Assembly (NCBI RefSeq): GCF_019195435.1
Contig: NZ_CP078069.1
Location: 806,001-870,000, forward strand
Direction: 5' to 3'
DNA: 64,000 nucleotides
Source of the DNA: Comamonas sp. NLF-1-9
GTDB lineage: Bacteria > Pseudomonadota > Gammaproteobacteria > Burkholderiales > Burkholderiaceae_C
The translations under genes and the position numbers were made by a program. A model generated the notes under the pieces. It saw only the letters and a list, made by a program, of their open reading frames with translations, had not been told where the DNA came from and did no database searches. Of the stretch, positions 927 to 63,542 are shown in pieces; position 1 is the stretch's first letter, and the number at the start of each line of letters is the position of its first letter.

Positions 927-956
927 TTATTCAATGATTGTTGTATCCTTGAATAA
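927..956. promoter_or_regulatory. ArsR operator overlapping the arsR start
   Basis: A perfect 8-bp inverted repeat, TTATTCAA (927-934) and TTGAATAA (949-956), spaced 14 bp, runs into the arsR start codon (956-958). Its position and form fit an ArsR-family autoregulatory operator that blocks the promoter until arsenite or antimonite is bound. No Shine-Dalgarno sequence is seen before the start, so the transcript may be leaderless or weakly translated. Confidence 0.65.
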
Positions 957-1294: not shown

Positions 1295-1306
1295 AAGGAT
1301 TCCTCC

Positions 1307-1753: not shown

Positions 1754-1772
1754 CTGCTGACGAAAGCCGCCC

Positions 1773-2270: not shown

Positions 2271-2277
2271 GGTACCC

Positions 2278-3363
2278 ATGACCGCAGCGACTGAATCGGC
2301 CCGCTCCATGCCGGCCTCCCCGACCATGAGCGTGTTCGAGCGCTACCTGACGGTGTGGGTTTTCCTGTGCATCGTTGTCGGCATCGCGCTGGGCCAGTTC
2401 GCGCCCGGCGTGTTTCAGGCCATCGGCCACATGGAAGTAGCCCAGGTCAACTTGCCGGTGGGCCTGCTGATTTGGGTCATGATCATTCCCATGCTGCTCA
2501 AGGTGGACTTCGGCGCACTGGGCCAGGTCAGGCAGCACTGGCGCGGCATCGGCGTCACGCTGTTCATCAACTGGGCCGTCAAGCCCTTCTCGATGGCGCT
2601 GCTGGCGTGGATATTCATCCGCCACGCCTTCGCCGACGCGCTGCCCGCCGACCAGCTCGACAGCTATGTCGCCGGCCTGATCCTGCTGGCCGCCGCACCC
2701 TGCACGGCGATGGTGTTTGTCTGGAGCCGGCTCACGGGCGGCGACCCCGTGTTTACGCTGTCGCAAGTGGCGCTGAACGACACCATCATGGTGTTTGCCT
2801 TTGCACCCATCGTCGGCCTGCTGCTGGGCCTGTCGGCCATCACCGTGCCATGGGATACGCTGCTGGTGTCGGTGGCCCTTTACATCGTCATCCCCGTCAT
2901 CCTCGCGCAGGTCTGGCGTCGCGCCTTGCTGCGGCGAGGCCAGGCCGTGTTTGACCGCACCCTGGAGCGCATCGGCCCGCTGTCCATCGCGGCGCTGCTG
3001 CTCACGCTGGTGCTGCTGTTCGCCTTCCAGGGCCAGGCCATCCTGCAGCAGCCCCTGGTCATCGCCATGCTGGCGGTGCCGATCCTCATCCAGGTGTTCT
3101 TCAACTCCGGGCTGGCGTACTGGCTCAACCGCAAGGTGGGCGAGAAGCACAACATCGCCTGTCCTTCGGCGCTGATCGGCGCGAGCAACTTCTTCGAGCT
3201 GGCCGTGGCCGCCGCCATCAGCCTGTTCGGCTTCCAGTCCGGCGCGGCGCTGGCCACCGTGGTCGGCGTGCTGATCGAGGTGCCCGTCATGCTGCTGGTC
3301 GTGCGCGTGGTCAACCGCTCGCGCGGCTGGTACGAGGCCGGCCCGAACCCATCAACCCGATAA
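2278..3363 (+). CDS. acr3: ACR3-family arsenite efflux permease
   Basis: A 361-residue inner-membrane protein with about ten transmembrane segments. The conserved AAAPCTAMVFVWS block holds the essential cysteine of ACR3 pumps, and GGDPVFTLSQVALNDTIM follows as in the family. ACR3 exports As(OH)3 using the proton gradient. I chose ATG at 2278, preceded by GTGAGG; an in-frame ATG at 2251 would overlap arsC by 20 bp and lacks a ribosome site. The symbol arsB is often used in databases, but the sequence is ACR3 and not the ArsB family. Confidence 0.93.
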   Translation: MTAATESARSMPASPTMSVFERYLTVWVFLCIVVGIALGQFAPGVFQAIGHMEVAQVNLPVGLLIWVMIIPMLLKVDFGALGQVRQHWRGIGVTLFINWAVKPFSMALLAWIFIRHAFADALPADQLDSYVAGLILLAAAPCTAMVFVWSRLTGGDPVFTLSQVALNDTIMVFAFAPIVGLLLGLSAITVPWDTLLVSVALYIVIPVILAQVWRRALLRRGQAVFDRTLERIGPLSIAALLLTLVLLFAFQGQAILQQPLVIAMLAVPILIQVFFNSGLAYWLNRKVGEKHNIACPSALIGASNFFELAVAAAISLFGFQSGAALATVVGVLIEVPVMLLVVRVVNRSRGWYEAGPNPSTR

Positions 3364-3370
3364 CCACGAC

Positions 3371-3799
3371 ATGCCCATGAGCACTATCACGATCTATCAC
3401 AACCCCGCCTGCGGCACGTCGCGCAACACCCTGGGCCTGATCCGCAACAGCGGCGAAGAGCCCACGGTTATCGAATACCTGAAGTCACCCCCCGATCGCG
3501 CCACGCTGGTCAAGCTGCTGGCCGATGCAGGCCTGAGCGTGCGCGATGTGCTGCGCGAAAAAGGCACACCCTATGCCGAACTTGGCCTGGGCGATCCGAA
3601 ATGGACGGATGACCAGTTGCTCGATTTCATCGAGCAGCACCCCGTTCTCATGAACCGGCCCATCGTGGTCACGCCGCTGGGCACGCGCCTGTGCAGGCCA
3701 TCGGAAGCGGTGCTGGACATCCTGCCGCAGCCGCAGCGCGGCGCGTTCAACAAGGAAGATGGCGAAGCCGTGGTGGATGCGCAGGGGCGCCGCGTCTGA
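3371..3799 (+). CDS. arsC: Arsenate reductase, glutaredoxin-coupled type
   Basis: A 142-residue thioredoxin-fold protein of the Escherichia coli R773 ArsC type. The catalytic cysteine is Cys14 in HNPACGTSRN, and the arginines that bind arsenate lie in RDVLREKGTPY, MNRPIVVT and GTRLCRPSE. It is unrelated in sequence to the first arsC at 1773, so the operon carries two reductases drawing on different thiol systems. ATG at 3377 is an alternative start (MSTITIYHN). It closes the arsenic operon; a 68-bp gap separates it from padR. Confidence 0.93.
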   Translation: MPMSTITIYHNPACGTSRNTLGLIRNSGEEPTVIEYLKSPPDRATLVKLLADAGLSVRDVLREKGTPYAELGLGDPKWTDDQLLDFIEQHPVLMNRPIVVTPLGTRLCRPSEAVLDILPQPQRGAFNKEDGEAVVDAQGRRV

Positions 3800-3841
3800 A
3801 TACTTATTGCGCGCACGGCCAGGCGATGTGATGCTGATATC

Positions 3842-3867
3842 ATCGAATTTCGTTATCGTTATTCGAT
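3842..3867. promoter_or_regulatory. Candidate PadR operator
   Basis: ATCGAAT (3842-3848) and ATTCGAT (3861-3867) form a 7-bp inverted repeat with a 12-bp spacer, ending directly at the padR start codon. PadR repressors usually control their own promoter through such palindromes. The function is inferred from position. Confidence 0.5.
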
Positions 3868-4197
3868 ATGAAAGAAAAGCCAACACCCCGCGCCCTGGAG
3901 CACCACGACCTGCTGTCGGGGCTGATCCGCCTGCATGTGCTGCACCACGCGGCCGAGCAGGAGATCTACGGGCAATGGATGATCGACGAATTGGCTCATC
4001 ACGGCTATCGCCTGTCCCCAGGAACGCTGTACCCGATGCTGCACAAGATGGAGCGAGACGGCTACCTCATCTCGCGCCAGGAGCGTGAAGGGCGCACCGT
4101 GCGCAAGCTCTACTCGATCACGACCAAGGGCAAGGAAGGCTTGGCACTGGCCAAGGAGCGCATCCGGGAGTTCACCGGGGAGGCGATGCACAAATGA
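3868..4197 (+). CDS. PadR-family transcriptional regulator
   Basis: A 109-residue winged-helix protein: GQWMIDELAHHGYRLSPGTLYPMLHKMERDGYL is the PadR DNA-binding part, followed by the wing VRKLYSITTKGKE and a helical dimerisation tail. Its stop overlaps the chrA start (ATGA at 4194-4197), so the two are translationally coupled. That makes it the likely regulator of chromate efflux. The family is usually a repressor released by a small ligand; whether chromate is sensed cannot be told here. Confidence 0.88.
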   Translation: MKEKPTPRALEHHDLLSGLIRLHVLHHAAEQEIYGQWMIDELAHHGYRLSPGTLYPMLHKMERDGYLISRQEREGRTVRKLYSITTKGKEGLALAKERIREFTGEAMHK

Positions 4198-5423
4198 CCG
4201 ATTCCACCAACAACCCGCCAGGCGAAGCCGCTGCAGCACACGGTTCTCCCGCCGAAGTCTTTGGCGCCTTCCTCAAGCTGGGGCTGACCTCCTTTGGCGG
4301 GCCGATCGCGCATCTGGGCTATTTCCGCACGGAGTTCGTCGAACGCCGCCGCTGGCTGGATGACCGCAGCTACTCCGATCTGGTCGCCCTGTGCCAGTTC
4401 CTGCCGGGGCCGGCCAGCAGCCAGGTCGGCATGACACTGGGGCTGGGCCGCGCGGGCTGGCCGGGGCTGCTGGCCGCATGGGCCGGATTCACCTTGCCAT
4501 CGGCGATTGCGCTGATCCTATTCGCTCTCGGAATCGCCCAGTACCAGGGGCTGGCCCAGTCCGGTTGGGTGCATGGGCTGAAGGTCGTGGCCGTGGCCAT
4601 TGTGGCGCAAGCCGTATGGGGCATGGCCAAGTCGCTGTGCCCGGATCGACCGCGTGCCGCCCTGGCCATTCTGGCGGCGCTGCTGACTATGGTCCTGCCC
4701 TCGTCTGCGGGACAGGTCGTCGCCATCGCGGTAGCTGGAGTGCTGGGCTGGTGGAGGTTGGAGATTGCACAGCCCAGCGGCGGTCTGGCCCATAGCTACC
4801 CAGTCTCGCGCAAGCTGGGCACCGTGACGCTGCTGCTGTTCGCCACGCCGCTCGTCGGGCTCCCCCTTTGGGCCGCAGCCACGGGCTCGTCCACGATCGC
4901 ACTGCTGGAGGGGGTGTACCGCTCCGGCGCACTGGTCTTTGGTGGCGGGCACGTCGTGCTGCCGCTACTGCAAGCCACCGTGGTGCCCAGCGGCATCGTG
5001 AGCAATGCAGACTTCCTGGCCGGCTACGGTGCGGCGCAGGCCGTGCCAGGACCGCTATTCACATTCTCGGCCTATCTCGGCGCCATCGCCCAGGGGCCGC
5101 TGCACGGCTGGACAGGCGGTCTGGCGCTGCTGGGCACCATATTCCTCCCGGCCTTCTTCATGCTGGTAGGCGCGCTGCCGTTCTGGGAGGGGCTGCGCCA
5201 CCGCGCGGGCATCCAGACGGCCATGGCGGGCATCAATGCAGGCGTGGTCGGCATCCTGGTGTCCGCGCTGTATGACCCGGTGTGGACGGGTGCTATCCTC
5301 GGCAAGGGGGATTTTGGGCTGGCGTTGCTCTCGTTCGGATTGCTGACGGTGGGGCGCGTGCCACCAGCGCTGGTGGTGCTGCTGGCCGGCCTGTTGGGCT
5401 GGATCATGGCGATGGGTTTCTGA
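4194..5423 (+). CDS. chrA: ChrA chromate transporter
   Basis: A 409-residue inner-membrane protein of the CHR superfamily, with two homologous halves. The N-terminal half has the signature FGGPIAHLGYFRTEFVERRRWLDD and QFLPGPASSQVG; the second half repeats it as YRSGALVFGGGHVVLPLL and GYGAAQAVPGPLFTFSAYLG. Members export chromate and so protect against Cr(VI). Overlaps padR by 4 bp. The usual partner chrB is absent next to it; a broken chrB piece lies at 11080 in the same island. Confidence 0.93.
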   Translation: MTDSTNNPPGEAAAAHGSPAEVFGAFLKLGLTSFGGPIAHLGYFRTEFVERRRWLDDRSYSDLVALCQFLPGPASSQVGMTLGLGRAGWPGLLAAWAGFTLPSAIALILFALGIAQYQGLAQSGWVHGLKVVAVAIVAQAVWGMAKSLCPDRPRAALAILAALLTMVLPSSAGQVVAIAVAGVLGWWRLEIAQPSGGLAHSYPVSRKLGTVTLLLFATPLVGLPLWAAATGSSTIALLEGVYRSGALVFGGGHVVLPLLQATVVPSGIVSNADFLAGYGAAQAVPGPLFTFSAYLGAIAQGPLHGWTGGLALLGTIFLPAFFMLVGALPFWEGLRHRAGIQTAMAGINAGVVGILVSALYDPVWTGAILGKGDFGLALLSFGLLTVGRVPPALVVLLAGLLGWIMAMGF

Positions 5424-6276: not shown

Positions 6277-8328
6277 TCAAGCGGCCAGCGCCTGCGCGGG
6301 TTCATCCGCCATTGCTTCGGCATCCTTCGGCGCGTCGTCCTGCTCCTGCATGGCTTCCGGCGTTTCGGCCTTGAAGATGGCAGGCATCCAACCCGTACCG
6401 TTCGCCAGCTGTTCCGCTTCGCTGGCAATGTCGGCCTTCTTCAATTTCGCCAGCCGGTTGACGTGATCGGGCGCGTACTCGCCTACGGCTTGCAGGATCG
6501 CCGCCTTCGGAACGTGCTTGAAATAACCCTCCGCGCTCGGCGTCCACCATGCCGCCATGTCGAGGCCCACGGCCTGCGCCAGTTCCGCGCCGGGTTGGTG
6601 CGGCGTGGCGCGAGGCATCACCACGTCCACCGTGGAGGCTACGCACACGGCCAGTAGCTTGACGAGTTCGTCTTGCGACTTCGCAAGCAGCGCGGCGAAC
6701 AGTTCGGTGCTGTCCTGCGGCAAGGCTTCGCCTGCCACCTGTTGCAGTTCGCGCAGCGCCACGGCAGCAGACGATTCCGACCAGTCCGAGGCCATGCCTT
6801 CCAGCCGGTCTTGCACTTTCAGGCTCACGCCCAGCGGCAACGCATCATGACGGGGGCCGTAGTGCCTGCCGCGCAAAACGGTCTGCACCATGCCATGCAC
6901 CAGCGCGGCCAGCGCCACTTGCGGATGCCGTGCCACTTCGATTTGCAGCGCGGCGGTGCGGTGAGCGCTCAACCGCTGCGCCAGCTTGTCGGACATGGCG
7001 GCGGTCTTGGGCTGCTCGTCGTCCTCGCCTTCGTCGTCGTTCCCAGCATCCTCGCCGCTGAAACCCTGGCGCAAGCGTTCCAGCGTGCGCAGCGCCTTCG
7101 CTTCGGCTTCGCGCATCAGCCCGCGATGAATCACGGCCCGCCCGTTGCCATCGATGGTGACGATGGCACCGGCTGCGGCCTTCACGGTCGGGCTGTAGTC
7201 CTGCAAACCATCTTCCAACGCCTGCAACTGCTCGCCCACGGCTTCGCCTTCCTCTTGCAGCGCGTCGGCCTTGTCCTCGTCCTCGGCTTCCAGCGCATCA
7301 TCGAGGGTTTCGCCAATGGCTTGCACCTTGGCTTGCAGCTTTTCGATGCGCTGCGCTTCGCGCTTGGTCGGTTCGCGCCGCTCCCTCGGCGCACGCTGGA
7401 AGGCGTGCAGATCGGCATGGGTCACGCCCGGCGTGGCATCCACCCATGCCCAGCCTTCGGCCTTCACCTCGGCGGCGATGCCTGTCAGCCGGTCTTGCGC
7501 CAGCCTGTCCAGCAATGCGGCATCGGTCAGATACACGCCCGCGTCACCTTCCGCGAACAGGTCACGGCGCACGCCACCGCCTGCGGCTTCGTAGGCGCCC
7601 AGCCCGACGAAGCGCACCAGCGGATGCCGGTAGGCGTCGATTTCGCGCTCGGTGAGGCGGTCGCGCAGCGCGGACGGCTGGCGCTGCCACGTTGGCGCAT
7701 CGTAGAAGGCGCTTTCCTGCGCCGCGTGGTCATCGGTGATGGAAAGCGCCATCAACTGATCGAGCGTGACGGCATCGGCCCGGTAGTCGGCCATGAGGCG
7801 CGGCGAGACATTCGCCAGCTTCAAGCGGCGCTGCACCACCAGCGGCGTGACGCTGAAATCCGCCGCAATGTCCTCGATGGGTCGGCCTTCGGCCACCAGC
7901 GCGGCGAAGGCTTCAAACTGGTCTGCCGGGTGCATGGCTTCGCGCTGCACGTTCTCGGTGAGGCTGGCCGTGCGGGCCGTGCCATCGGCTACCTGCAAGC
8001 AAGGCACCTCCCAATCCTTGGCGATGCGGTGCTTTTTCGCCAGCAGCTTCAACGCGGCCAGCCTGCGGCCACCGGCCACGACTTCGTAGTGCTCACCATC
8101 GGCGGATGCAATCACGATCAGGTTTTGCAGCAGGCCCACGCGCTGAATGCTCGCGGCCAGTTCAGGGATGGACATGCGCGGGGTCTTGCGCACGTTGCGG
8201 CCCGTGGGGCGCAGCACCAGCCGCGACAGTGGAACCAGAATCAAGTTCTTGGTCGGGTCGGCGGCTTCCAGCGGGATAGCGGCGGCGGCATTGACGGCGC
8301 GGGCTTCGGTGTAGGTGATGGCGTTCAT
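6277..8328 (-). CDS. ParB/RepB-like protein of the integrative element
   Basis: A 683-residue protein. The N-terminal 200 residues carry a ParB/Spo0J-type nuclease-like domain: ELAASIQRVGLLQNLIVI, the VVAGGRRLAALKLL box and SLTENVQREAMHPADQFEAF, followed by an HTH region (IEDIAADFSVTPLVVQRRLKL). The middle holds an acidic, Glu/Asp-rich helical stretch (about 340-470), and the C-terminal third is unknown. Chromosomal ParB is about 300 residues and paired with ParA; here no ParA is next to it. Such long ParB-domain proteins are typical of ICEs and plasmids, probably for maintenance. ATG at 8328 has a GGAG site. Confidence 0.85.
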   Translation of the reverse strand: MNAITYTEARAVNAAAAIPLEAADPTKNLILVPLSRLVLRPTGRNVRKTPRMSIPELAASIQRVGLLQNLIVIASADGEHYEVVAGGRRLAALKLLAKKHRIAKDWEVPCLQVADGTARTASLTENVQREAMHPADQFEAFAALVAEGRPIEDIAADFSVTPLVVQRRLKLANVSPRLMADYRADAVTLDQLMALSITDDHAAQESAFYDAPTWQRQPSALRDRLTEREIDAYRHPLVRFVGLGAYEAAGGGVRRDLFAEGDAGVYLTDAALLDRLAQDRLTGIAAEVKAEGWAWVDATPGVTHADLHAFQRAPRERREPTKREAQRIEKLQAKVQAIGETLDDALEAEDEDKADALQEEGEAVGEQLQALEDGLQDYSPTVKAAAGAIVTIDGNGRAVIHRGLMREAEAKALRTLERLRQGFSGEDAGNDDEGEDDEQPKTAAMSDKLAQRLSAHRTAALQIEVARHPQVALAALVHGMVQTVLRGRHYGPRHDALPLGVSLKVQDRLEGMASDWSESSAAVALRELQQVAGEALPQDSTELFAALLAKSQDELVKLLAVCVASTVDVVMPRATPHQPGAELAQAVGLDMAAWWTPSAEGYFKHVPKAAILQAVGEYAPDHVNRLAKLKKADIASEAEQLANGTGWMPAIFKAETPEAMQEQDDAPKDAEAMADEPAQALAA

Positions 8329-8392: not shown

Positions 8393-9220
8393 TCAGGCTT
8401 TCAACTGGCGCAGGCCATCGGCCAGCATCCACAAGGCGCGATTGAGGCGCACATCGGAATCAATGCCCTGTATCGGGCGGGTCTGCTGGCGGCGTCCGTT
8501 GGCGCTGCGGCCATGCAATCCGCCTTTGGTCAGGTTTTCTTGGGTGCGGTTGAACACGCTCCACAAGTCCGGGCGGCGGTCGTCGAACCGGCGCGGCATC
8601 AGGATTTGCGATTCGGTGATGGGCGCGGGCTTATTGTCGGTGGGGTCGTATTTGAGGGCCAGCGCGGCGCGTGCGAAGACTTCGGCCTCGCCATCGTCCA
8701 AGGTGATGCCGCGCATCAGGTCGCGGGATTCCTTCACGCGGTCGAAACCGCGCAGCACCTCGAACGCGCCTTCGATAACTTGGCCCGCCACGTCGCCCTT
8801 ATGGGGTACGCGCACGTCCGCCACGGTGTCACCGCAGACAAGGCCATTGCTGCACACGAAGCGGAACATTCCGGCCAGCATCTGATAGCTGCTCGTGCCA
8901 TCGTGCGAGTTCAGCAGGATGATTTCATTGGCTTCCGCGCCGTTGATCTGGCTGGCATGGCGCAGGCGCAGCATGTGTTTCGTGTGCTCGCGCTTGCCTT
9001 CATCGCGCACGCGGGTTTGCGTCACCATGAAAGGCTGAAACCCTTCCTTGCGAAGCTCGGTCAACACCGCTGCCGTAGGGATATAGGCGTACCGCTGCGA
9101 ACGGCTCTCATGCGGGGCATCCGCGAAGATGGACGGCGCTACACGGTGAATCTGGTCATCGGACAGCGGGTAGTCGCTGCGCAGCGCGGGGGAGTGGGAA
9201 GCGAAACGGGTTGCAAGCAT
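8393..9220 (-). CDS. DUF932 domain protein
   Basis: A 275-residue protein of the DUF932 family (phage/plasmid-like). Recognisable blocks are RYAYIPTAAVLTELRKEGFQPF, IILLNSHDGTSSYQMLAG and RFVCSNGLVCGD, then a helical C-terminal half with PITESQILMPRR. The family is widespread on ICEs, plasmids and phages; its biochemical role is not established. I chose ATG at 9220 (AGGAGAACGAC before it) over an in-frame upstream ATG. It follows a 700-base leader holding a conserved structured repeat. Probably co-transcribed with the ParB-like gene 64 bp downstream. Confidence 0.85.
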   Translation of the reverse strand: MLATRFASHSPALRSDYPLSDDQIHRVAPSIFADAPHESRSQRYAYIPTAAVLTELRKEGFQPFMVTQTRVRDEGKREHTKHMLRLRHASQINGAEANEIILLNSHDGTSSYQMLAGMFRFVCSNGLVCGDTVADVRVPHKGDVAGQVIEGAFEVLRGFDRVKESRDLMRGITLDDGEAEVFARAALALKYDPTDNKPAPITESQILMPRRFDDRRPDLWSVFNRTQENLTKGGLHGRSANGRRQQTRPIQGIDSDVRLNRALWMLADGLRQLKA

Positions 9221-9554
9221 GTCGTTCTCCTGACTTGGCTGTTGAAGAAAGCGCACACCGGATTCCTAGATTCGGAGCCCAGCCTTTCGGCTGTTCGGTG
9301 CGGTCGGCACGAAGAACCCGGTTGGCCCTGTTGCCACCGTCTTTCCTGAGTTCATCGCCCGCGACGGTCAGGAGCGCGCGGACGGGGCCGTCAAGGAGGA
9401 AAGCGCAGGGTTGGTGCGGCCCGCAGGCGCAGCCGAGGACACGGCCCTGCGCGCCTTGATGGCACACGGGAGCGGGCTACAGTCGCGGACAAGGTGATGA
9501 AGTCAGGGAAGACGGCTGGACAAGGCAACAGGCACCTTCCCGCCGACCGCACGG

Positions 9555-9712
9555 CAAGCGAAGCGCGCAGGCCCGAAGCTGGAAGCCGGGCCGGAGGCGT
9601 CAGCCGAGCGGAGCGAGGGAACGATGGAAGCCCAGCAGGGGCGAGACGCCGCAGGCGGCTCGATGCGCAGCACGACAGCGCGACCGGCCATCTCCCAGGT
9701 GGCCGGGGACGC
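9555..9712 (-). ncRNA. Candidate radC-motif leader RNA, copy A (upstream of DUF932)
   Basis: Read on the minus strand, this segment shares a long core with 10815-10955 and 14650-14800: GGCC..GGTCGCGCT, TGCTGCGCATCGAGCC, GTCTCGCCCC, GGGCTTCCATCG, CTGACGCC, and a GGCCCG/CGGGCC stem followed by CTGCGCGC. Stems are conserved while loops vary, as expected of a structured RNA. Each copy precedes a minus-strand island gene, one of them radC. The Rfam radC motif (RF01754) is known upstream of radC and antirestriction-type genes on mobile elements; I infer membership. Confidence 0.6.
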
Positions 9713-9789
9713 CCAGACTTCAAATCCGAATGGATAACAGGGTCAGGACGAGCGCACGCAAGGCATCGTGGATCTGCTGCGGATGCTGT

Positions 9790-9918
9790 CTGACCGATCC
9801 GGCGCACCCGGGTCGGCGGTGTTCAGGGGCGCCAAGCCTTGCGCGGCGGGGATAGCCCGCAGGGCTTTCCCCTGGAGGCAAGCGAAGCGTGCAGCGCCCC
9901 GGAAGGGGCGCGAAGGCA
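9790..9918. repeat. Island repeat type 2, copy 2
   Basis: Nearly identical to 740-862 over the central 70 bases (GGGATAGCCCGCAGGGCTTT and GGAGGCAAGCGAAGCG), then a second hairpin, GCGCCCC-GGAA-GGGGCGC. It lies directly downstream of the 92-aa gene on the minus strand, so it may end that transcript. No protein is evident. Confidence 0.6.
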
Positions 9919-10197
9919 TCAGGCCGAGTCTTCAGGCCGCAGGCAGGATTGCGCAACCGGCACCCACGGCGAAGTCGAGTTCAGCAGATAGCGCGCTCCA
10001 CGCGCGTAGTGACCCGAAAGCCCGATGGGCCGGTAGAACCTTGTGATGCGGCGATGGAACTGCACTCCGTATTCGTTGGTGTAGATCACCGCATCGCCGA
10101 TCTTGAAGCGCAGCGGCTGGCCGTTCTCCGGCGCAAAGGGCTTGAGCGCATCGTGCTGCGCAGTGATTTCGATGATGTAGTCGTGATGGCTGCTCAT
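9919..10197 (-). CDS. Conserved hypothetical island protein, 92 aa
   Basis: ATG at 10197 (GGAGATCAATGCC before it) opens a 92-residue frame starting MSSHHDYIIEITAQHDALK. The middle, RFKIGDAVIYTNEYGVQFHRRITRFYRP, looks like a small beta-barrel or SH3-like fold, but I do not recognise a named family. The end is PWVPVAQSCLRPED. It lies between the DUF932 leader and the DUF2958 gene, all on the minus strand, 65 bp after DUF2958, and so probably belongs to one island maintenance operon. Function unknown. Confidence 0.65.
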   Translation of the reverse strand: MSSHHDYIIEITAQHDALKPFAPENGQPLRFKIGDAVIYTNEYGVQFHRRITRFYRPIGLSGHYARGARYLLNSTSPWVPVAQSCLRPEDSA

Positions 10198-10262
10198 GGC
10201 ATTGATCTCCTGTGATGATCGAGAAAGCGCAAGGAGCGCCTTGCGGCGCTCCAAGAGCGAGG

Positions 10263-10613
10263 TCAGACGACGATCCGCCCGGCCAGCCGCGCATCGTGCG
10301 CGTAGGCGCTCAAGCGCTTCTCTGGGCGAAAGTGAAGATCGCGCTCGATCGGCAGGCCCAGCCTGCCGCGCACGCTCGCCAGCTCGCTCAAGCTGACCCA
10401 GCCGATTTCCGGCATCCCCAGTCCCAGGTCGCACAGCCCGAAAGCGTGGTCGTGGTCATCGGGATCAATCTCGGTCAGCAGCCAGGTCGCGCCGGCATCC
10501 GGCGTGAACAGCTTGACCACGGGCGCCGGATCGAAATCCGGGCTCTCCAAGGATTCGCGGCCGTTGGCCAGCAGCACGATGCGCTGCTCGTCGGTGATGA
10601 ATGCGTGGTTCAT
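10263..10613 (-). CDS. DUF2958 domain protein, second copy
   Basis: A 116-residue protein beginning MNHAFITDEQRIVLLANGRE, with PAPVVKLFTPDAGATWLLTEIDPDD, FGLCDLGLGMPEIGWVSLSEL and a C-terminal block RLGLPIERDLHFRPEKRLSAY, all typical of DUF2958. ATG at 10613 follows AGGAGTTCACC. It is a diverged paralog of the truncated copy at 1-208. The gene follows a 340-base leader with the conserved structured core. Role unknown; the family travels with DUF932 and ParB-domain genes on ICEs. Confidence 0.85.
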   Translation of the reverse strand: MNHAFITDEQRIVLLANGRESLESPDFDPAPVVKLFTPDAGATWLLTEIDPDDHDHAFGLCDLGLGMPEIGWVSLSELASVRGRLGLPIERDLHFRPEKRLSAYAHDARLAGRIVV

Positions 10614-10814
10614 GGTGAACTCCTGAAAGGTTGCCGGGCGGAATTGCCCAGCCCTTCCGGGGCACGGCGCAGCGCAAGCAGTCAGGGGTCGCAGACGGCC
10701 GGCAGGACGCAAGCGCCATTGGCGCGCAGCCCTTGACGGCGAGAACGCCGTGATACGGTGAAGGAAACAGCAAGACCGCCTACACCCCGCCCACTGCACA
10801 GACTCGGTTTTTGC

Positions 10815-10955
10815 GGCGAACGCAGCGCGCAGGCCCGGCACCAGCCGGGCCGCAGGCGTCAGCGATGGAAGCCCGAATGGGGCGAGACTCGCATGGCGAG
10901 GCTCAATGCGCAGCACGAGAGCGCGACCGGCCGATTCATCGGCCGGGGACGTGCC
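10815..10955 (-). ncRNA. Candidate radC-motif leader RNA, copy B (upstream of DUF2958)
   Basis: Second copy of the core described at 9555-9712. The terminal stem is GGCCGATGAATCGGCC read on the minus strand and the internal stem pairs GGCCCGGC with GCCGGGCC. Between the core and the DUF2958 start lies a further block shared only with copy C, including AACGCCGTGATACGGTGAAG (10744-10763, plus strand) and a GGGCGGAATTGCCC hairpin just before the ribosome site. Found upstream of the gene in transcript orientation. Confidence 0.6.
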
Positions 10956-11079
10956 ATTGCATTTTTTTGCCTGAGATTGCCCAGGCCGCACAGCAGAGAA
11001 TTTGTTGAGATAGCTACAGCATTACAGCAATCGTGACAGCCACCTTAAGCCTGCTGCCGCGCCTCTCCTCTCCGATTCC

Positions 11080-11440
11080 TGGCTGGCCCTCATCGTCAGC
11101 CTCCCATCCACCAGTGCCACGCCCCGCATGCGAATCTGGCGTGCCGTCAAAGCGCCGGGCTGTGCCGCCCTGCATGACGGCGCCTACTTGTTGCCAGCGC
11201 ACACGGAGCAGGCCGCGCAGTTGCAGGCCTAGCCGACGACGCCCTGCAGGAAGGCGGGCAAATCTGGCTGCTGCAGGTGCAGGCCATGCGACATGGCCGA
11301 ACAAAGCACCATCCAGGCCCTGTTCGACAGGACCACCGACTACACCCTTTGGCTGGAGGAACTGGCGCAAGCACGCGTGCGCCTACGAGGCCATTGCCTT
11401 CGCCGTGACCTTGCTTCCCACGCTGGCACGGCTGCGCAAC
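11080..11440 (+). pseudogene. chrB: chrB remnant (N-terminal third, two frameshifts)
   Basis: Three consecutive pieces read like the start of ChrB, the chromate-sensing regulator. Frame 1 from 11080 gives WLALIVSLPSTSATPRMRIW and KAPGCAALHDGAYLLP, then a stop at 11230. The next frame (11232-11288) gives ADDALQEGGQIWLLQVQA. Frame 1 resumes at 11290 with AEQSTIQALFDRTTDYTLWL before similarity ends near 11380. ChrB is about 300 residues; only about 100 remain, so it is dead. The fragment suggests a second chromate locus was once here. Confidence 0.7.
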
Positions 11441-11443
11441 ACC

Positions 11444-11836
11444 CTATAAGTGCGGCTTGAGTCCCCACCAACCTGCAGCGACCACGCCCAGCCATATCAA
11501 CACGATGAGCCCTATCCCGAACCGGCTCCTGGGCTTGGCACCGTTGGCTTGCATCCATGCGTCTGCCTGGCTGCGGCACGCCGCAAGGATGTCTGGAGGC
11601 AATAGTTTGACGGCCAGCCAGATCAGCGCGGGTAATAGCAGCATGTCATCCACGTAGCCCAGCACAGGAATGAAGTCCGGGATCAAGTCGAGAGGACTCA
11701 GCGCATAGGCCACCACAAAGACCCCGAGGGCCTTCGCGTACCAGGGGGTGCCGGGATGTTTGCCCGCAAACCACAGCGTCACGCCATCGCGCTTGATCCG
11801 CTTGGCCCAGGTTTTCAGGGACGTGCCGATACTCAT
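11444..11836 (-). CDS. YkvA-like DUF1232 membrane protein
   Basis: A 130-residue protein with the DUF1232 signature YALSPLDLIPDFIPVLGYVDDMLLLPALIWLAVKLLP, which contains two short hydrophobic segments, and a C-terminal transmembrane helix (IGLIVLIWLGVVAAGWW). Its ATG overlaps the dmeF stop by 4 bases, so it is translated with the efflux pump. YkvA-type proteins often accompany cation transport genes but have no defined activity. Confidence 0.82.
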   Translation of the reverse strand: MSIGTSLKTWAKRIKRDGVTLWFAGKHPGTPWYAKALGVFVVAYALSPLDLIPDFIPVLGYVDDMLLLPALIWLAVKLLPPDILAACRSQADAWMQANGAKPRSRFGIGLIVLIWLGVVAAGWWGLKPHL

Positions 11837-12825
11837 GCGGCCTGCCGCTGCACCTCGACCGTGACATGCGACAGCTCATGGATATGCGCGAGCAGTGCCT
11901 TGTAGTACGCAGGTTCCTGGGGCTCCTGAGCGATCAGCGAAACAATGGCCGCGAAATGCCCCGGTCCGACCTGCCACACATGCAGGTCGGCGATCTGACT
12001 CCCTGTCGGCTCCGTAGCTTCCCGGATCTCCTGTCGCACTTCCTCGCCTTCGGCCGCAGCATCAAGCAGCACGCTACCGGAATCCTGAATCAGCCCCCAT
12101 GACCAGCGAGCGATCACCAGCGCGCCGACCACGCCCATGACCGGATCGGCCCACAGCCAGCCGTAGTTGCGGCCGACCAGCAGCGCGACGATGGCCAGCA
12201 CGGAGGTCAGCGCATCGGCCAGGACGTGGATGTACGCGGCGCGCAAGTTGTTGTCTCGGCTGTGGCCATGCGCAGCATGATGAGCATCGTGCCCTTGGTC
12301 ATGGCCGTGCTCATGATCATGGTGGTGGTGATGGCCGTGATCATGACCATGGTGCGCATGGTCGTCTTTCAGCAGCCAAGCGCAGATCAGGTTGATGATC
12401 AGGCCCACGGCAGCCACGGCGATCGCCTGGTTGAAATCAATGTGGATCGGCTGGGTCAGCCGCACCAGGCTCTCCCAGGCGATCAGCAACGCGATCAAGG
12501 CCAGGACGATCGCGCTGGCGAAGCCGGCCAGATCGCCAAGCTTGCCGGTGCCGAAGGTAAAGCGCGGATTGCCCACCTGCTTGCGCGCGAAGCGGTAGGC
12601 CAGTGCGGTGATCAGCATCGCGCCGGCATGAGTGGACATGTGCCAGCCATCAGCTACCAGCGCCATCGAGCCGTAGATCGTGCCGGCAACGATTTCCACC
12701 AGCATCATGCTGGCCGTCAGCGCGATCACCAGCCACACCTTGCGCTCATTGCGCTGGTGGTCAGTGCCAAGGAAGAAATGGTCGTGTGCGGACTCGGCGA
12801 GTGGAGCGGTCGTGGCGTTGGTCAT
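11833..12825 (-). CDS. dmeF: DmeF-type cation diffusion facilitator (Co/Ni efflux)
   Basis: A 330-residue CDF transporter with six transmembrane helices. The paired metal-site motifs are ALVADGWHMSTHAG in helix 2 and YIHVLADALTS in helix 5. Between helices 4 and 5 lies a very His-rich loop of about 35 residues (15 or more His with Asp/Glu), and the N-terminus has HDHFF and DHQRNERKVW, all as in DmeF. CDFs exchange a divalent metal for protons. The regulator at 12866 is of the RcnR/DmeR type, which supports cobalt or nickel as substrate. Confidence 0.9.
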   Translation of the reverse strand: MTNATTAPLAESAHDHFFLGTDHQRNERKVWLVIALTASMMLVEIVAGTIYGSMALVADGWHMSTHAGAMLITALAYRFARKQVGNPRFTFGTGKLGDLAGFASAIVLALIALLIAWESLVRLTQPIHIDFNQAIAVAAVGLIINLICAWLLKDDHAHHGHDHGHHHHHDHEHGHDQGHDAHHAAHGHSRDNNLRAAYIHVLADALTSVLAIVALLVGRNYGWLWADPVMGVVGALVIARWSWGLIQDSGSVLLDAAAEGEEVRQEIREATEPTGSQIADLHVWQVGPGHFAAIVSLIAQEPQEPAYYKALLAHIHELSHVTVEVQRQAA

Positions 12826-12865
12826 GCATGATTTCCTGAATGGGGGCGCTCTGCGAGCGACAAGT

Positions 12866-13138
12866 TCATCTCATGTAAGCCCGAATGACTTCGATCATTT
12901 CCTCCCCGCCCTGGTGGCGCTCCTGGTCGTTCGACGGTGCCAGGACGTGTTCACGCAGATGATCTTCCATCACCTCGGCGGTCAAACCGCTGACCGCGCC
13001 GCGGACGGAAGCGATCTGGCGCAGTACCTCGACACAGGCCGCATCCGCCTCCAGGGCGCGCTCGATGCCTTCGAGCTGGCCCTTGATACGGCGGACACGC
13101 GCGATCAGCTTGGCTTTCTCACGGGAGGTGTGGGACAT
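12866..13138 (-). CDS. dmeR: DmeR/RcnR-type Co/Ni-sensing repressor
   Basis: A 90-residue all-helical protein of the CsoR/RcnR family. The metal ligands known for RcnR, His3, Cys35, His60 and His64, are all present at the same positions (MSH, AACVEVL, EDHLREH), which points to Co(II)/Ni(II) rather than copper or formaldehyde sensing. The N-terminal helix KLIARVRRIKGQLEGIERAL contacts DNA. It heads the dmeR-dmeF-ykvA unit, 40 bp before dmeF. Confidence 0.9.
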   Translation of the reverse strand: MSHTSREKAKLIARVRRIKGQLEGIERALEADAACVEVLRQIASVRGAVSGLTAEVMEDHLREHVLAPSNDQERHQGGEEMIEVIRAYMR

Positions 13139-13152
13139 AGCGACAGGTGATT

Positions 13153-13171
13153 TATAGACTAGTGGACTATA
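13153..13171. promoter_or_regulatory. Candidate DmeR operator
   Basis: TATAG (13153-13157) and CTATA (13167-13171) flank a nine-base centre containing ACTAGTGG, just upstream of the dmeR start on the minus strand. RcnR/DmeR operators are AT-rich inverted arms around a short G/C tract, which this resembles only loosely. An AT-rich promoter-like stretch (ATATTATATTAA) adjoins it. Confidence 0.45.
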
Positions 13172-13282
13172 TTATATTAAGAAGGAGGATAGGTTGAAAC
13201 CAATGCCCTTAAGACATGGGCGAGGCACCCGCCGCAGCCGAGAGATCAAGCCGAGAGATCAAAACGCACCGGATTACAATCG

Positions 13283-13450
13283 CGGCGTCATTGGGGAGTA
13301 GCTAACCGCCGTCCTGGCGGGGCTGATGTCAACACACTTGACCCGCAGGTCATGGCGTCAGCAGTTTCCGAACCCGGCAAGACCTTTGACCACAACGCCT
13401 CCGACTTGGCCGGGGATGCGTGGTGGTCAATCGTCAGTACCCGGCCAGGG
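13283..13450 (+). ncRNA. yybP-ykoY manganese riboswitch
   Basis: The leader has the two hallmark pieces of the yybP-ykoY motif: TTGGGGAGTAGC near its 5' end (13291-13302) and GGCAAGACCTTTGACC later (from 13376), with GTCATGGCGTCAGCA between them. A -10 box TACAAT lies at 13275-13280. The class binds Mn(II) and switches on Mn exporters. It sits directly before a TMEM165-type transporter gene, a known target class. Boundaries are approximate. Confidence 0.88.
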
Positions 13451-13457
13451 AACCAAC

Positions 13458-14036
13458 ATGGAATCGCTACTCGTCTCCACCGGAGTCGTCGCCCTCGCAG
13501 AAATCGGCGACAAGACCCAACTCCTCGCCTTCATCCTCGCCGCACGCTTCAAGAAGCCCGTGCCGATCATCCTTGGCATCCTGGCCGCGACGATCGTGAA
13601 CCATGGTCTCGCGGGTGCGCTGGGCGCCTGGATTACTGGCGCCGTGAGTCCCGCGATTCTTCGCTGGGTGCTGGGCGCTTCGTTCATCGGTATGGCGATC
13701 TGGACGCTGATTCCAGACAAGATCGAGGAGGAAGAAACCCAAGTCGCCAAGCGTTTCGGCGTCTTCGGGGCGACGCTGATCACTTTCTTCCTGGCCGAGA
13801 TGGGCGACAAGACGCAGATTGCCACCGTCGCGATGGCCGCCCATTACGCAACGCCGCTGCTGGTGGTGATCGGCACGACCCTGGGCATGCTGATCGCGGA
13901 CGTGCCCGCCGTGTTCGTGGGCGATAAGCTGGCCAACAAAATCCCAATGAAGCTGGTGCATTCGATCGCCGCGGGCGTCTTCGCGGTGCTGGGCATTGCA
14001 ACCCTGCTGGGCGCGGGCGCCAAACTGGGCCTCTGA
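13458..14036 (+). CDS. TMEM165/GDT1-family manganese exporter
   Basis: A 192-residue membrane protein with six predicted helices made of two halves, each carrying the family signature: ALAEIGDKTQLLAF (residues 12-25) and FLAEMGDKTQIATV. The acidic and polar residues of these E-x-G-D-K-T motifs bind the cation. Bacterial members export Mn(II). ATG at 13458 was chosen because it is the first start after the riboswitch; longer frames would run through the RNA. Regulation by the upstream riboswitch is inferred. Confidence 0.9.
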   Translation: MESLLVSTGVVALAEIGDKTQLLAFILAARFKKPVPIILGILAATIVNHGLAGALGAWITGAVSPAILRWVLGASFIGMAIWTLIPDKIEEEETQVAKRFGVFGATLITFFLAEMGDKTQIATVAMAAHYATPLLVVIGTTLGMLIADVPAVFVGDKLANKIPMKLVHSIAAGVFAVLGIATLLGAGAKLGL

Positions 14037-14208
14037 GCAATTCAGCCCCGCGCGCAGGGCAAGTGCGCTCGCAGAAAACGAACTTTCAGTTATGAAGTCG
14101 TGGTTTTTTAAATTATTTCCTTGAGAGCCGATTCACGCACAGGAGAAGGCGCCGTGCAATCCGGCGCTGCATCCGGTCGATCGCTACGGCAAGCGCAAGG
14201 ACAGGCTC

Positions 14209-14446
14209 AACTACGAATCGAGGAACAGCACCGCGAACACCTCATGCGCGAAGCCGGCCAGCTTGGCGCACAGATACTCCTTGACCGCCGCCGGCGAAGT
14301 GAACTGACGCACCTCACTGCAACTTGCGCTTGATAGTCTGGCGCACGACCTCCAGGATCTGGTCGGTGGTCGCCAGCAGGTAGCGGCCCTGTGCGTCACG
14401 CACCATCAGCGATGGCATCGAACGAGGAAAAGGACAGTTGCGACAT
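14209..14446 (-). pseudogene. radC: radC remnant (frameshifted and truncated)
   Basis: ATG at 14446 (GGAG site) starts MSQLSFSSFDA and is then lost. The next frame continues LMVRDAQGRYLLATTDQILE and VRQTIKRKLQ; a second shift gives SPAAVKEYLCAKLAGFAHEV and FAVLFLDS, then a stop at 14211. These pieces, in order, are the N-terminal half of the RadC (JAB/MPN-type) protein found on ICEs. The catalytic region with the HNHPSG motif is missing. It is therefore inactive. It is preceded by leader copy C, which ties that RNA to radC. Confidence 0.75.
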
Positions 14447-14649
14447 ATCGTGCTCCGGTTGCTCGGGCGGAATTGCCCGGAACCATGGCCAGCGCAGCGC
14501 AAATAATCAAAGATCGAAGACGGCCGCCAGCCGCAAGCGCGCCTGCACGCGCAGCCATTGACTGCGAGAACGCCGTGATACGGTGAAGGTGACAGCAAGA
14601 CCACCCACACCCCACCCGTTGCATGCACTCGGTATTTGGTGTCGCAGTA

Positions 14650-14800
14650 AGCGCAGCGCGCAGGCCCGGATCAACGAACCGGGCCTGAGGCGTCAGCCGA
14701 GTGAAGCGAGGCAACGATGAAAGCCCGACAAGGGCGAGACGCCGCAAGCGGCTCGATGTGCGCAAGCGCGACGATGGCGGGACGCCCAGGTTCGGGCGGG
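14650..14800 (-). ncRNA. Candidate radC-motif leader RNA, copy C (upstream of radC remnant)
   Basis: Third copy of the core. The GGCCCGGnnCCGGGCC-type stem, GGGCTTTCATCG, GTCTCGCCC and CACATCGAGCC are readable on the minus strand. The block 14565-14600 (AACGCCGTGATACGGTGAAG) and the GGGCGGAATTGCCC hairpin (14464-14477) match copy B. As it precedes radC itself, this copy is the strongest argument for the radC motif assignment. The gene below is now broken, so this copy may be free of selection. Confidence 0.62.
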
Positions 14801-14870
14801 AAACAGTGTGAACCGGGGGATTGTCGTAACGGTGATACGAGAATCGTCGGGCGTTTCCCTGCCTCGGCCT

Positions 14871-15191
14871 TCAGGCCGCATGCACGGACGGCGACGAGGT
14901 CAACGGCTGCACCGCTAGGCGCAGGCCCATCGCCTTGAGGATGGCGGTCAGGCTGTTCAGGGCCGGATTGCCCTTCGGCGACAGCGTGCGGTAAAGCTGT
15001 GTCGGATTCAGGTGCGCCTGTTCCGCCACCACCTGCACGCCACCGACCGCCTGCGCGAGCTGGCGCAGCACGATCATCAACTCGGCCTGGTCGCCATCGG
15101 CCAGGATGCCGTTGATGACTTCGAGCGCCAGCGCCGGATCGCTGCGGTACAGCTCAGCCATCGCCTCGTCATGGGGTCTGCTTCTCATCAT
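14871..15191 (-). CDS. Antitoxin of a toxin-first type II module (HI1420-like)
   Basis: A 106-residue protein with a C-terminal HTH: VVAEQAHLNPTQLYRTLSPKGNPALNSLTAILKAMGLRLAV, the pattern of the probable addiction-module antidote family. The N-terminal half would wrap the toxin. It overlaps the toxin gene by 20 bases in the toxin-then-antitoxin order typical of this group. Likely stabilises the island; the HTH suggests it also represses the operon. Confidence 0.85.
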   Translation of the reverse strand: MMRSRPHDEAMAELYRSDPALALEVINGILADGDQAELMIVLRQLAQAVGGVQVVAEQAHLNPTQLYRTLSPKGNPALNSLTAILKAMGLRLAVQPLTSSPSVHAA

Positions 15192-15519
15192 CCAATCTCC
15201 GTTGCCAGTCCTGCCAATAGCCTACCGCCCGGTCGATGTCTGCATCCTGTGTGCGCTTGTCGCCGCCGCACAACAGCAACACCAGCCGCTGGCCCGCCAG
15301 CCCGTAATACACCCGGTAGCCCGGCCCCAAGTCGATGCGCAACTCCCACACGCCATCACGACAGAACTTGTGATCGCCGAAGTTGCCTTGCTCGACGCGG
15401 GCCACGCGCCGGATGACCGCCACCTTGGCCTGCATATCGCGCAAGCGGCGCAACCAGTCGGTGTAGAGATCCTTCTGCCCGTCCGCCGTCAGGTAATGCT
15501 CGATTCGGTACATGATCAT
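15169..15519 (-). CDS. RelE/HigB-like toxin (HI1419 type)
   Basis: A 116-residue basic protein with the family blocks LYTDWLRRLRDMQAKVAVIRRVAR, GVWELRIDLGPGYRVYYGL and LVLLLCGGDKRTQDADI. These are the phage-derived Gp49-like/RelE-fold toxins, usually ribosome-dependent mRNA nucleases. ATG at 15519 or the second ATG at 15513 (MYRIEH) are both possible starts. A related but distinct pair is present at 41166-41764. Confidence 0.87.
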   Translation of the reverse strand: MIMYRIEHYLTADGQKDLYTDWLRRLRDMQAKVAVIRRVARVEQGNFGDHKFCRDGVWELRIDLGPGYRVYYGLAGQRLVLLLCGGDKRTQDADIDRAVGYWQDWQRRLDDEKQTP

Positions 15520-15617: not shown

Positions 15618-17015
15618 TCAAGCGGTAGGCGCCGGCGTGTCAGCCCGCTTCGTGCCAGGAGGTACGGCGCGCGTCGGAGCCTTGCGATGGCGATAGGGAC
15701 GGTAGTTGCCCTGGCTGGTACGAGTCTTCTCGCCGACTACGATGGCGGAGGTCGGGGTCGCGGCTGCTTGCACAGGCGTTGGCGCCGGCACCGGAGCGGG
15801 AGCCGCGTCCGTCGGCACAGGAGTCGGCGTAGCCGGCGCCTGGCCGCCAATGGCACCCCTGCGCAAGGTTGCCACTTTCTCGGCTGCGGCACGCAACGGA
15901 TCATCCTCCGTATGTACATATGTCATGAACTGCGTGACTGTCTTGTGCGCGGTCAGCGCCATGCCAACCTTGATGGGGATACCGGAGTTGGCAATGTCGG
16001 TAGCCGCGCGATGGCGAATGCCGTGCGTTCCGACGTGCGGCACTTCCGCACGGCCCAAGATCCGCTTCCACCCGTTGTAGTACGTGCTGTCGGGCAAAGG
16101 CTGCTTGGCATCGAAGATTGCCGGGCACACATAGGGCGAGTCGTCGATGCGGGGCGCATTGGACAGCAGTTGATAGGCCGCTTCGCTCATCGGCTTGGAC
16201 ATATCGCCGGTCTTGCTGTCGGGCCACGCGACGCGGCGATTCTCGAAATCGACCCAGGCCCATTCCAGCGTGCGGATTTCCGTCATGCGTGCAGAAAATT
16301 CGAATTGCAGACGAACCGCCAACGTCACGGTTGGATGTTCAAGCCCCTCGGCATCTGCGCGGTCGAGATAGGCATAGAGACGCGCCAACTCATCATTGTT
16401 GATATACCGCGTCTCGCCGTCTTCCCGGTACTTGGGGACATGGCGGCACGGATTGGAGCCGTCGGGCCGGTAGCCCCACACCTCGGCCATGTTGAACATT
16501 TTGCGCAGACAGGCCAGAACCCGATTGGCCGTGACGCCGATCTTCGCCTTGTCCTTCATCAGTGCCGTGATGTGCACCCTCGTTACGTCGGGCACCTTGA
16601 GCTTGCCCAGCGCAGGCAGGATGTGACGGTCGATGTAGCCTTGGTACGAGTCCACCGTCCGGGGCTTGTTGCGCGGCTTGGAGTATTCCTCGATGAACTG
16701 TCCACACAGTTCCTTGACCGTGGGAGCCATGCGCGCGGCCAGCTTGGCAGCGCTTGGGTCGTCGCCCTTGCGCACATCGGCCAGCCAGTCCTGGGCAATC
16801 GACCGGGCCTGCTCGACAGTCAGTTCGCCAAATTGGCCGATCTTCGGCTTGCGGCGCTCGCCCCAGTTCGTGCGGTACTGGAGCATGAAGACCTTGCGGC
16901 CGTGAGCGGTGACCTTGCAGAGGAAGCCGGGGACAATGGTGTCCCGCAGTTCGTAGTCCTTGCCGGTGACTCCAGCCGCATCAACGGCGGATTTGGTGAG
17001 CTTGATCTTAGCCAT
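15618..17015 (-). CDS. int: Tyrosine integrase of the island (DUF4102 arm-binding type)
   Basis: A 465-residue site-specific recombinase. Residues 1-90 are the arm-binding DUF4102 domain (KLTKSAVDAAGVTGKDYELRDT, then a GRKVFMLQYRT block), followed by a SAM-like core-binding domain and the catalytic domain with ARMTEIRTLEW (first Arg), HGIRHRAATDIA (His-x-x-Arg) and a final THKTV-like stretch ending in the nucleophile of MTYVH. The last 75 residues are a Pro/Ala-rich and then basic tail, longer than usual. ATG at 17015 has an AGGAGG site. It lies 177 bp from the tRNA-Leu scar, its expected target. Confidence 0.93.
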   Translation of the reverse strand: MAKIKLTKSAVDAAGVTGKDYELRDTIVPGFLCKVTAHGRKVFMLQYRTNWGERRKPKIGQFGELTVEQARSIAQDWLADVRKGDDPSAAKLAARMAPTVKELCGQFIEEYSKPRNKPRTVDSYQGYIDRHILPALGKLKVPDVTRVHITALMKDKAKIGVTANRVLACLRKMFNMAEVWGYRPDGSNPCRHVPKYREDGETRYINNDELARLYAYLDRADAEGLEHPTVTLAVRLQFEFSARMTEIRTLEWAWVDFENRRVAWPDSKTGDMSKPMSEAAYQLLSNAPRIDDSPYVCPAIFDAKQPLPDSTYYNGWKRILGRAEVPHVGTHGIRHRAATDIANSGIPIKVGMALTAHKTVTQFMTYVHTEDDPLRAAAEKVATLRRGAIGGQAPATPTPVPTDAAPAPVPAPTPVQAAATPTSAIVVGEKTRTSQGNYRPYRHRKAPTRAVPPGTKRADTPAPTA

Positions 17016-17192
17016 GACGCCTCCTAGTTCGAGATCGAACGCAGGAACCAGCCAAGAGCCACGGCATCGGAAGGTGTGCCGCAATCGGTCTGGTCTAGGC
17101 GTAAGGTTAAACGGGACTAACTCCCCGGAAAACCAAGCGCAGCAAGGCTATGCAGGTTCCAGCGTAGTCTTATGCTAGTCTCGGGAGTCAAT

Positions 17193-63318: not shown

Positions 63319-63542
63319 GAAGCACCCGATTATCCCAAGCCCTGCGCCGCAGCGCCGGCACTCTGCGCGCGCCCGGGACCGGCGCAGCACCCCGAGCCCG
63401 TCGGCGCCCGCCCTGCGGGAGCGCAAATGCGACGCTGTAACACCTTGACGCCCGCCGGCGCACCCCTCTTGCCTATGATGCCGCGGCCCGCCCGGCGCCA
63501 GCGCCGTGCGCAGGGGGCACCAATGCAATGAGGGAGGACAAG

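Follow-up and report, generated by a model that had tools for sequence, protein, structure and literature searches.

Three homologous structured repeats of a Comamonas integrative and conjugative element are probably single-stranded DNA elements of its leading region

Why does one mobile element carry copies of the same structured segment in front of three different genes, and does the structure act in RNA or in DNA? The question is raised by a 64,000-nt stretch of the Comamonas sp. NLF-1-9 genome (contig NZ_CP078069.1, positions 806,001 to 870,000; the window, numbered from its first letter), which holds the integrase end of an integrative and conjugative element (ICE). We take this ICE to be of the Tn4371 type, a label based on gene order plus a literature listing and not on a database assignment. 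The initial annotation had described the three segments, A, B and C, as structured leader RNAs of the radC motif. Our results suggest another answer: with a probability of roughly two in three, A, B and C are single-stranded DNA (ssDNA) elements of the Frpo/ssi type, located in the leading region of the ICE and acting on the transferred strand (T-strand). They are probably copies of a DNA signal that is widespread among conjugative elements, sits in the part entering the recipient first, and there probably helps the first genes to be expressed while the DNA is still single-stranded.

The three segments are homologous and lie on the minus strand, as the initial annotation had it. With A as blastn query against the whole genome (3.03 Mb), C (E=1.2e-29, 82%) and B (E=1.4e-13, 72%) were recovered and the next match had E=0.0015; A and C align ungapped at 84% over 113 nt. 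Covariance-model edges place core A, an array of mini-hairpins, at 9553–9714, core B at 10815–10954 and core C, in which the P1/P2 part is shortened, at 14646–14787. Each stands upstream of a different island gene on the minus strand, again as claimed: A before a DUF932 gene (8393–9220; Pfam PF06067, E=2.4e-56), B before a DUF2958 gene (10263–10613; PF11171, E=6.4e-44) and C before the N-terminal part of a broken radC gene (14314–14446), whose piece 14314–14412 matches the intact ICE RadC of the relative L023, itself a match to PF04002, at 61% over 31 amino acids. The block said to follow both B and C is there too (10723–10813 and 14548–14638, minus strand; 86% over 91 nt), as is the hairpin GGGCGGAATTGCCC before the ribosome site (10636–10649 for B and 14465–14478 for C, minus strand), and both block and hairpin recur in ICE relatives. 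This block, GTCTTGCTGT to CCTTCACCGTATCAC, hardly varies behind B/C-type cores of the window and of ICE relatives, in rows that had been selected for carrying it. When 27 rows, some of them A-type rows admitted by a loose text filter, were folded as a two-strand consensus, nothing usable emerged as a shared structure of the block.

To ask whether the stems are conserved as pairs, we used a covariance model, R1, built from 25 sequences (A, B, C and their ICE and plasmid relatives from blastn) and comprising 138 positions and 29 pairs; the training members A, B and C score 116.9, 118.5 and 81.4 bits. Over 81 loci R1 returned 112 matches at E<=1e-4, 86 of them distinct. Two-sided changes occur in 25 of the 29 pairs among these 86 cores, compared with 14.2 in shuffles, none of which (0/500) reached 25, and 303 cells carry such changes versus 90.5 in shuffles. 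Paired cells amount to 94.3%, falling to 45.7–49.1% when the partner is slid by one column, and the covariation score is 0.337, whereas shuffles give 0.107 and slid partners no more than 0.071; since the 86 cores include the training sequences and the alignment was fitted to R1, all these values lean towards the model. Stem P3, for instance, reads CGAG-C-[stem]-T-CTCG around a freely changing stem, while P6 is GGCCC/GGGCC in some cores and GCGCC/GGCGC in others. The conserved stems of the initial annotation are thus strongly borne out. Covariation establishes a fold, without telling RNA from DNA. Within the window R1 also gave two fainter matches that had not been annotated, both on the minus strand, at 821–968 (E=1.3e-4) and 9877–9998 (E=0.0024), which are probably decayed or partial copies of the core. 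They adjoin or overlap an 89% repeat (738–842 and 9794–9898), and comparable weak matches precede DUF932 in the annotated ICE relatives L022 and L024.

Is the fold that of the Rfam radC motif, RF01754? We consider this practically excluded. The likeness is one of name, one of the three window copies adjoining a radC gene; the difference is that RF01754 has no match at the gathering threshold in the window and none at E<=10 in the 6.5 kb (9000–15500) around A, B and C. The sole match of the window to Rfam at gathering is a manganese riboswitch elsewhere, with none on A, B or C, and the cores of nine further loci searched at gathering, and of 13 at E<=1, are covered by no Rfam match listed. What stands of the proposal that one RNA design serves the ICE is a real family, with members ahead of several backbone genes of a single mobile element, and its link to transfer; the assignment to RF01754 is not supported.

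The cores might still be mRNA leaders of another kind, with the sense strand transcribed and the fold acting in RNA on each downstream gene, in a riboswitch-like, protein-binding or attenuator manner. Most genes behind cores are co-directional, and the spacing between core and start codon varies little in the ICEs: it is 197–200 nt in L022–L024 for radC, DUF2958 and a 130-amino-acid gene and 340–345 nt for DUF932, and among held-out cores it peaks near 200 and 298 nt. Two conserved G.T pairs of the sense strand would also suit RNA. Promoter positions argue the other way. For four of the five cores of plasmids R46 and R388 the best sigma-70 match lies 408–454 nt downstream of the core, before the gene (10.5 or 11.5 of 12.5 points), with at most 9 points upstream and at most 6.5 inside the core; the scan covered 600 nt on either side, so read-through from further upstream is possible. 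The fifth core, beside stbC of R46, has only 8.5 points on both sides. A sigma-70 promoter within the core was also considered and rejected, the best sites in 15 cores reaching 5.5–7 of 12.5. The ICE itself has no outstanding promoter on either side of its cores, and a consensus promoter scan of window positions 8900–15000 gave one promoter-like site, equal to shuffles and away from A, B and C.

Gene-free copies tell against mRNA leaders as well. Among 42 annotated cores, counted by hand from annotation tables (a 43rd, the third in L070 at the record end, was left out), the next co-directional gene is 197–672 nt away in 32 and 946–1504 nt away in three; six have none listed within 2 kb, which does not prove a gene-free copy because plasmid gene tables are incomplete, and the last (L048, 5463) has none in the 494 nt seen. 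Four cores of MOBF plasmids point at stbC and are no more than 79 nt from its 3' end (L057 22048–22164, L048 5463–5585, L054 2972–3111 and L061 7145–7285); all except L048, with its short visible flank, are without a listed co-directional gene within 2 kb. Such a copy can hardly be a gene leader.

The strand that folds better points in the same direction. Calculated as DNA, 81 of the 86 cores fold at lower energy on the T-strand (sense strand 4, tie 1), as do 99 of 101 held-out cores and 20 of 21 held-out clusters; with RNA parameters, the strand opposite to sense folds better in 65 of 86 and the sense strand in 20. We counted triloop hairpins with stems of at least three pairs in 47 clusters (85% identity): 108 of the 192 triloops are TNC on the sense strand, which is GNA on the T-strand, and a single one is GNA on the sense strand (8.5% and 2.4% in shuffles), bearing in mind that loops at homologous places are mutually dependent. 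The held-out set of 101 distinct cores, for which no shuffle control was run, has 247 TNC and 15 GNA among 476 triloops, and the 21 held-out clusters less than 85% like any earlier core have 34 and 2 among 85. TNC loops are not known to have a merit in RNA except for UNCG, which most core stems presumably cannot form in register, and we count this against mRNA leaders. In the 86 cores 179 of the 208 TNC triloops have a C-G closing pair. GNA loops closed by C-G are described as ultra-stable DNA mini-hairpins (PMC4686876, PMC5815330); the cores resemble these in both loop rule and closing pair, the difference being that the mini-hairpin is a physical motif and not a genetic element. Outside the cores, hairpins with stems of at least four pairs have TNC:GNA ratios of 11:2 in the leading region and 6:7 in the relaxase-trb region of ICE L024, 7:2 (leading) and 3:2 (tra) in R388, 4:3 and 4:4 in R46, and 5:5 and 3:0 in F, a suggestive GNA polarity beyond the cores in the ICE and R388 only. 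Taken with the promoters and the gene-free copies, the strand preference makes the structured leader RNAs of the initial annotation unlikely, if less firmly so for the ICE itself, where no promoter stands out.

Cores keep one orientation relative to the relaxase. A relaxase was detected in 21 of the 24 plasmid records with a core (two Pfam families were used; the W01 match and the second W02 match are below the Pfam cut-off), and 60 of 60 cores in the 21 records are on the relaxase strand. Since several records share backbones, the independent ones number an estimated eleven or so rather than 21. By hand count, going round the circle where needed, 49 of the 60 cores lie 3–18 kb upstream of the relaxase, one of them (W26) equally near on the other side. 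Of the remaining 11, three belong to pSMC2, where TraI is far from the origin of transfer (oriT) but traM is nearby, and eight are far off (three weak ones in W05 and one each in W11, W14, W09, W17 and W19). Our own ICE agrees at 3/3: it continues to the left of the window, where an open reading frame (ORF) for a relaxase (genome 798777–801248, minus strand) and a ParA-like ORF (genome 802606–803244, minus strand) are found, and the cores (genome 815553–820787, minus strand) lie upstream of the relaxase on its strand. We took upstream of the relaxase to be the leading side of oriT, which would place oriT just upstream of the relaxase gene and would make the plus strand of the window the T-strand. 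Neighbours of cores include ssb, the ardA/ardB regulon, methylases, psiA, anti-CRISPRs and DUF932. In the Pseudomonas aeruginosa plasmid L069 (2407–4087) the anti-CRISPR genes acrE1 and acrF3 stand shortly before a core.

The next comparison is with plasmid F, which took no part in the training of R1. In 24 kb of F the model has two matches at E<=10, at 58091–58205 (E=1e-8) and 63479–63594 (E=1e-6), each 437 nt before a start codon, that of ssb in one case and that of the gene preceding DUF932 in the other. According to Couturier et al., Frpo2 precedes ssb and Frpo1 precedes ygeA and ygeB; the two are 92% identical and about 5 kb apart, and their deletion abolishes early expression of the genes behind (PMC9849209). 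By gene order and their 5.4-kb spacing, the two F cores would therefore mark the Frpo1 and Frpo2 places. They are 94.9% identical over their full length; similarity of the flanks is 43–57% per 60 columns upstream and 73–100% downstream, and because of this upstream drop the core is taken to open the F repeat. Frpo is given as 328 bp in reviews (PMC8744291, PMC7690428). By blastn, F Frpo has only a 33-nt match to B in the window (E=0.002). The ICE resembles F, with its ssDNA promoters of the ssiD type, in having the core in what is taken to be the leading region, in its orientation there, in the long rod that follows A and in the DUF932 gene, which is in the pair behind one F copy as it is behind A. 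The ICE differs in that the rod of A is dissimilar in sequence, a clear -35/-10 pair is missing and B and C have no rod. With no promoter boxes found and a rod at only one of the three, we do not class A, B and C as Frpo members.

The core is also found in the leading regions of the IncN plasmid R46 and the IncW plasmid R388. R46 has three cores, all pointing at the oriT side, two of which are 502 and 548 nt upstream of ccg genes. They fall within the regulon of the CUP repeats of IncN plasmids (pKM101/R46), which carry a promoter and ArdK sites (PMC6289460, PMC5371602). Could the core therefore be a double-stranded operator or recombination repeat, as CUP is usually described, that is, a repressor site of the plasmid spread by homologous recombination? 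We regard this as very unlikely: the R46 promoter is more than 400 nt downstream of the core, and a duplex operator gives no reason to expect the compensatory changes seen in 25 of 29 pairs.

Core A is followed by a further structure. Its downstream region (9221–9552, minus strand) consists of an imperfect rod hairpin of about 210 nt and then a stretch to the DUF932 start codon; no such rod is found behind B and C. A consensus fold of this region from 11 ICEs, calculated with RNA parameters, has -133 kcal/mol and 103 pairs, 74 of them in the rod, and since the 11 sequences are 91% alike only three pairs (one in the rod) have two-sided changes. Measured against 20 shuffles each, the A rod region has z -7.3 as T-strand DNA and -3.8 on the sense strand. 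For the two corresponding F regions the T-strand z scores are -7.4 and -6.3 and the sense-strand scores -5.8 and -7.1, which means that the F rod is not strand-specific. Cores alone have T-strand z scores of -1.0 (A), -3.6 (B), -2.5 (C) and -2.8 (F). The sequence TTGAC(G/A) is conserved in all 11 ICE rods.

From this we propose how A, B and C may work as leading-region ssDNA elements. During transfer the T-strand, predicted to be the plus strand of the window and hence the template of the genes, would enter the recipient. There the core may fold in vivo into a row of very stable mini-hairpins, joined at A by the adjoining long rod, with core and rod possibly dividing the labour between them. 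The folded core would mark the site where the host machinery starts RNA on the incoming strand, the reader presumably being RNA polymerase rather than a primase. The adjacent gene (DUF932, DUF2958 and, in the past, RadC) would thereby be expressed early, and second-strand synthesis might gain a primer, as with Frpo in F. A related possibility is that the core is an ssi site at which a primase, either host DnaG or one borne by the element, primes the complementary strand, gene expression being secondary. The T-strand evidence is the same for both, the gene-free copies beside stbC fit a priming site, and Frpo-type sites are reported to prime DNA synthesis in vitro (PMC7690428, PMC7736820). Priming alone would need fewer copies than are seen: there is mostly one per leading gene or operon and often 3–5 per element. 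We therefore think it unlikely, if somewhat less so than an mRNA leader, that the cores serve a primase first.

Several observations weigh against ssDNA elements of the Frpo/ssi type. Co-directional genes would suit an mRNA leader as well, and the leading-side placement of the ICE cores rests on the relaxase together with the presumed position of oriT. The loop rule is followed only weakly by tetraloops (23 of 134 are TNNC, with 7.7% in shuffles, and 2 are GNNA) and by the window copies, where a greedy count gives GNA/GNNA loops at 3/7 in A, 1/6 in B and 1/5 in C. The two pairs that are G.T on the sense strand, in 63 and 67 of the 86 cores, are A.C mismatches on the T-strand, and the remaining wobbles, summed by hand, are even (sense G.T 42 cells, sense A.C 33) and give the T-strand no advantage. 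By itself, core A is not more stable than its shuffles. As for the rod, T-strand folding found none behind B and C (z +0.7), the rod of A has no sequence similarity to that of F, and the Frpo2 region of F is as extreme on the sense strand. The region behind the R388 core (z -1.2) is no better than shuffles, that of R46 has z -3.7, and values near -4 mean little because three coding controls gave 0.2, 0.5 and -3.7. A recognisable -10 box was not found in the 11 ICE rods, which weighs little because a similar linear promoter scan finds nothing good in the F Frpo regions either. Finally, in the 50 kb of ColIb-P9 that were searched, no core reached significance (E 0.4–0.5), although this plasmid is a classic case of the Frpo/ssi type. 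Its ssi sites are like F in leading-region pieces that correspond to the P7 end of the core (32–37 nt) and to the rod (79–118 nt), and differ in that the whole core is not recognised. One sub-threshold match (E=0.5; L128 33719–33852, plus strand) stands before ardA of ColIb-P9 in the expected orientation.

How widespread is the core? Used as a blastn query (E<=1e-3), one core matched 1592 of 72,556 plasmid records and 0 of 50,697 phage records; conjugative plasmids make up 1414 of the 1592, a share that has no baseline and is not used as proof. With strict filters R1 detected the core in 24 of 26 whole plasmid records, the two without being a Variovorax and a Bosea plasmid; 24 of these records had been picked from blastn hits and R46 and R388 by name, and eight gave or shared training sequences. 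A text pattern for the core was found in at least 118 stretches of 84,980 genomes and in 16 stretches of 2.9 million viral contigs. By title, the 80 listed pattern loci are mostly from Burkholderiales, Pseudomonas/Stutzerimonas and Stenotrophomonas, with a few oddly labelled metagenome-assembled genomes. R1 identified 128 cores in them, 103 with at least 1.3 kb behind. The 86 distinct longest ORFs starting 60–900 nt downstream encode DUF932 (36), RadC (14), DUF2958 (7), SSB (2), N6-methylase (2) and others that are single or without a family, a sample biased to ICE-like copies because the pattern was derived from these. Among sampled genomes, blastn with A at E<=1e-8 matched 19 of 300 of the order, and R1 (E<=1e-6, strict filters) matched 6 of 369 genomes drawn from the class and 6 of 299 drawn from the phylum, of which two and three, respectively, are from the window's own family and one genome from outside it is in both lists.

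The remainder of the island fits an ICE end. Its order is integrase (15618–17021, minus strand; PF00589, PF13356), toxin-antitoxin pair, C with the radC remnant, a metal-transport insert, B with DUF2958, A with DUF932, and a ParB-like gene (6277–8328, minus strand; PF02195, E=5e-7). The annotated relatives L022–L024 have the same gene order, including the ParB-like gene after DUF932, and a Hydrogenophaga relative has the same genes followed by rep, parA, relaxase, traG and trb. The manganese riboswitch already mentioned (yybP-ykoY, RF00080, 90.8 bits; 13277–13454, plus strand) lies on the metal-transport insert between B and C, before an ORF near 13458–14036. At the window edge (93–201) two stretches resemble parts of the DUF2958 gene (10495–10603) at 78% and 73%. 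They are followed at 956–5423 by what is presumably an arsenic operon.

ssDNA promoters are well established for F and a few enterobacterial plasmids. Two surveys used blastn at E 1e-6 with known Frpo/ssi sequences (PMC11541004, PMC12826799); the former also used structure and promoter boxes to propose new candidates in a few islands, and the latter took in 13 of these. At that same threshold the F rod matched at least 5000 plasmid records, with one Pseudomonas among the 5000 matches listed, and matched neither the window nor ICE L024. What is new here is one covarying mini-hairpin module that is shared by the Frpo places of F, the IncN CUP regulon, IncW and the Tn4371-type ICEs; we found no description of it in the open-access articles searched. 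We tentatively suggest that a single ancestral ssDNA module, a row of GNA-loop mini-hairpins on the T-strand, is common to F, IncN, IncW, many MOBF and MOBP plasmids and the Tn4371-type ICEs. It might be a general entry signal of proteobacterial conjugative elements, placed ahead of the anti-defence and establishment genes that are expressed first, and distinct from the rod-shaped ssDNA promoter that accompanies it in F and at A. In any case, the structure-aware core model extends the search to Burkholderiales, Pseudomonas, Xanthomonas and ICEs, provides a strand-specific means of recognising leading regions and of discovering new anti-defence genes, and brings gene expression of an ICE before second-strand synthesis within reach of experiment.

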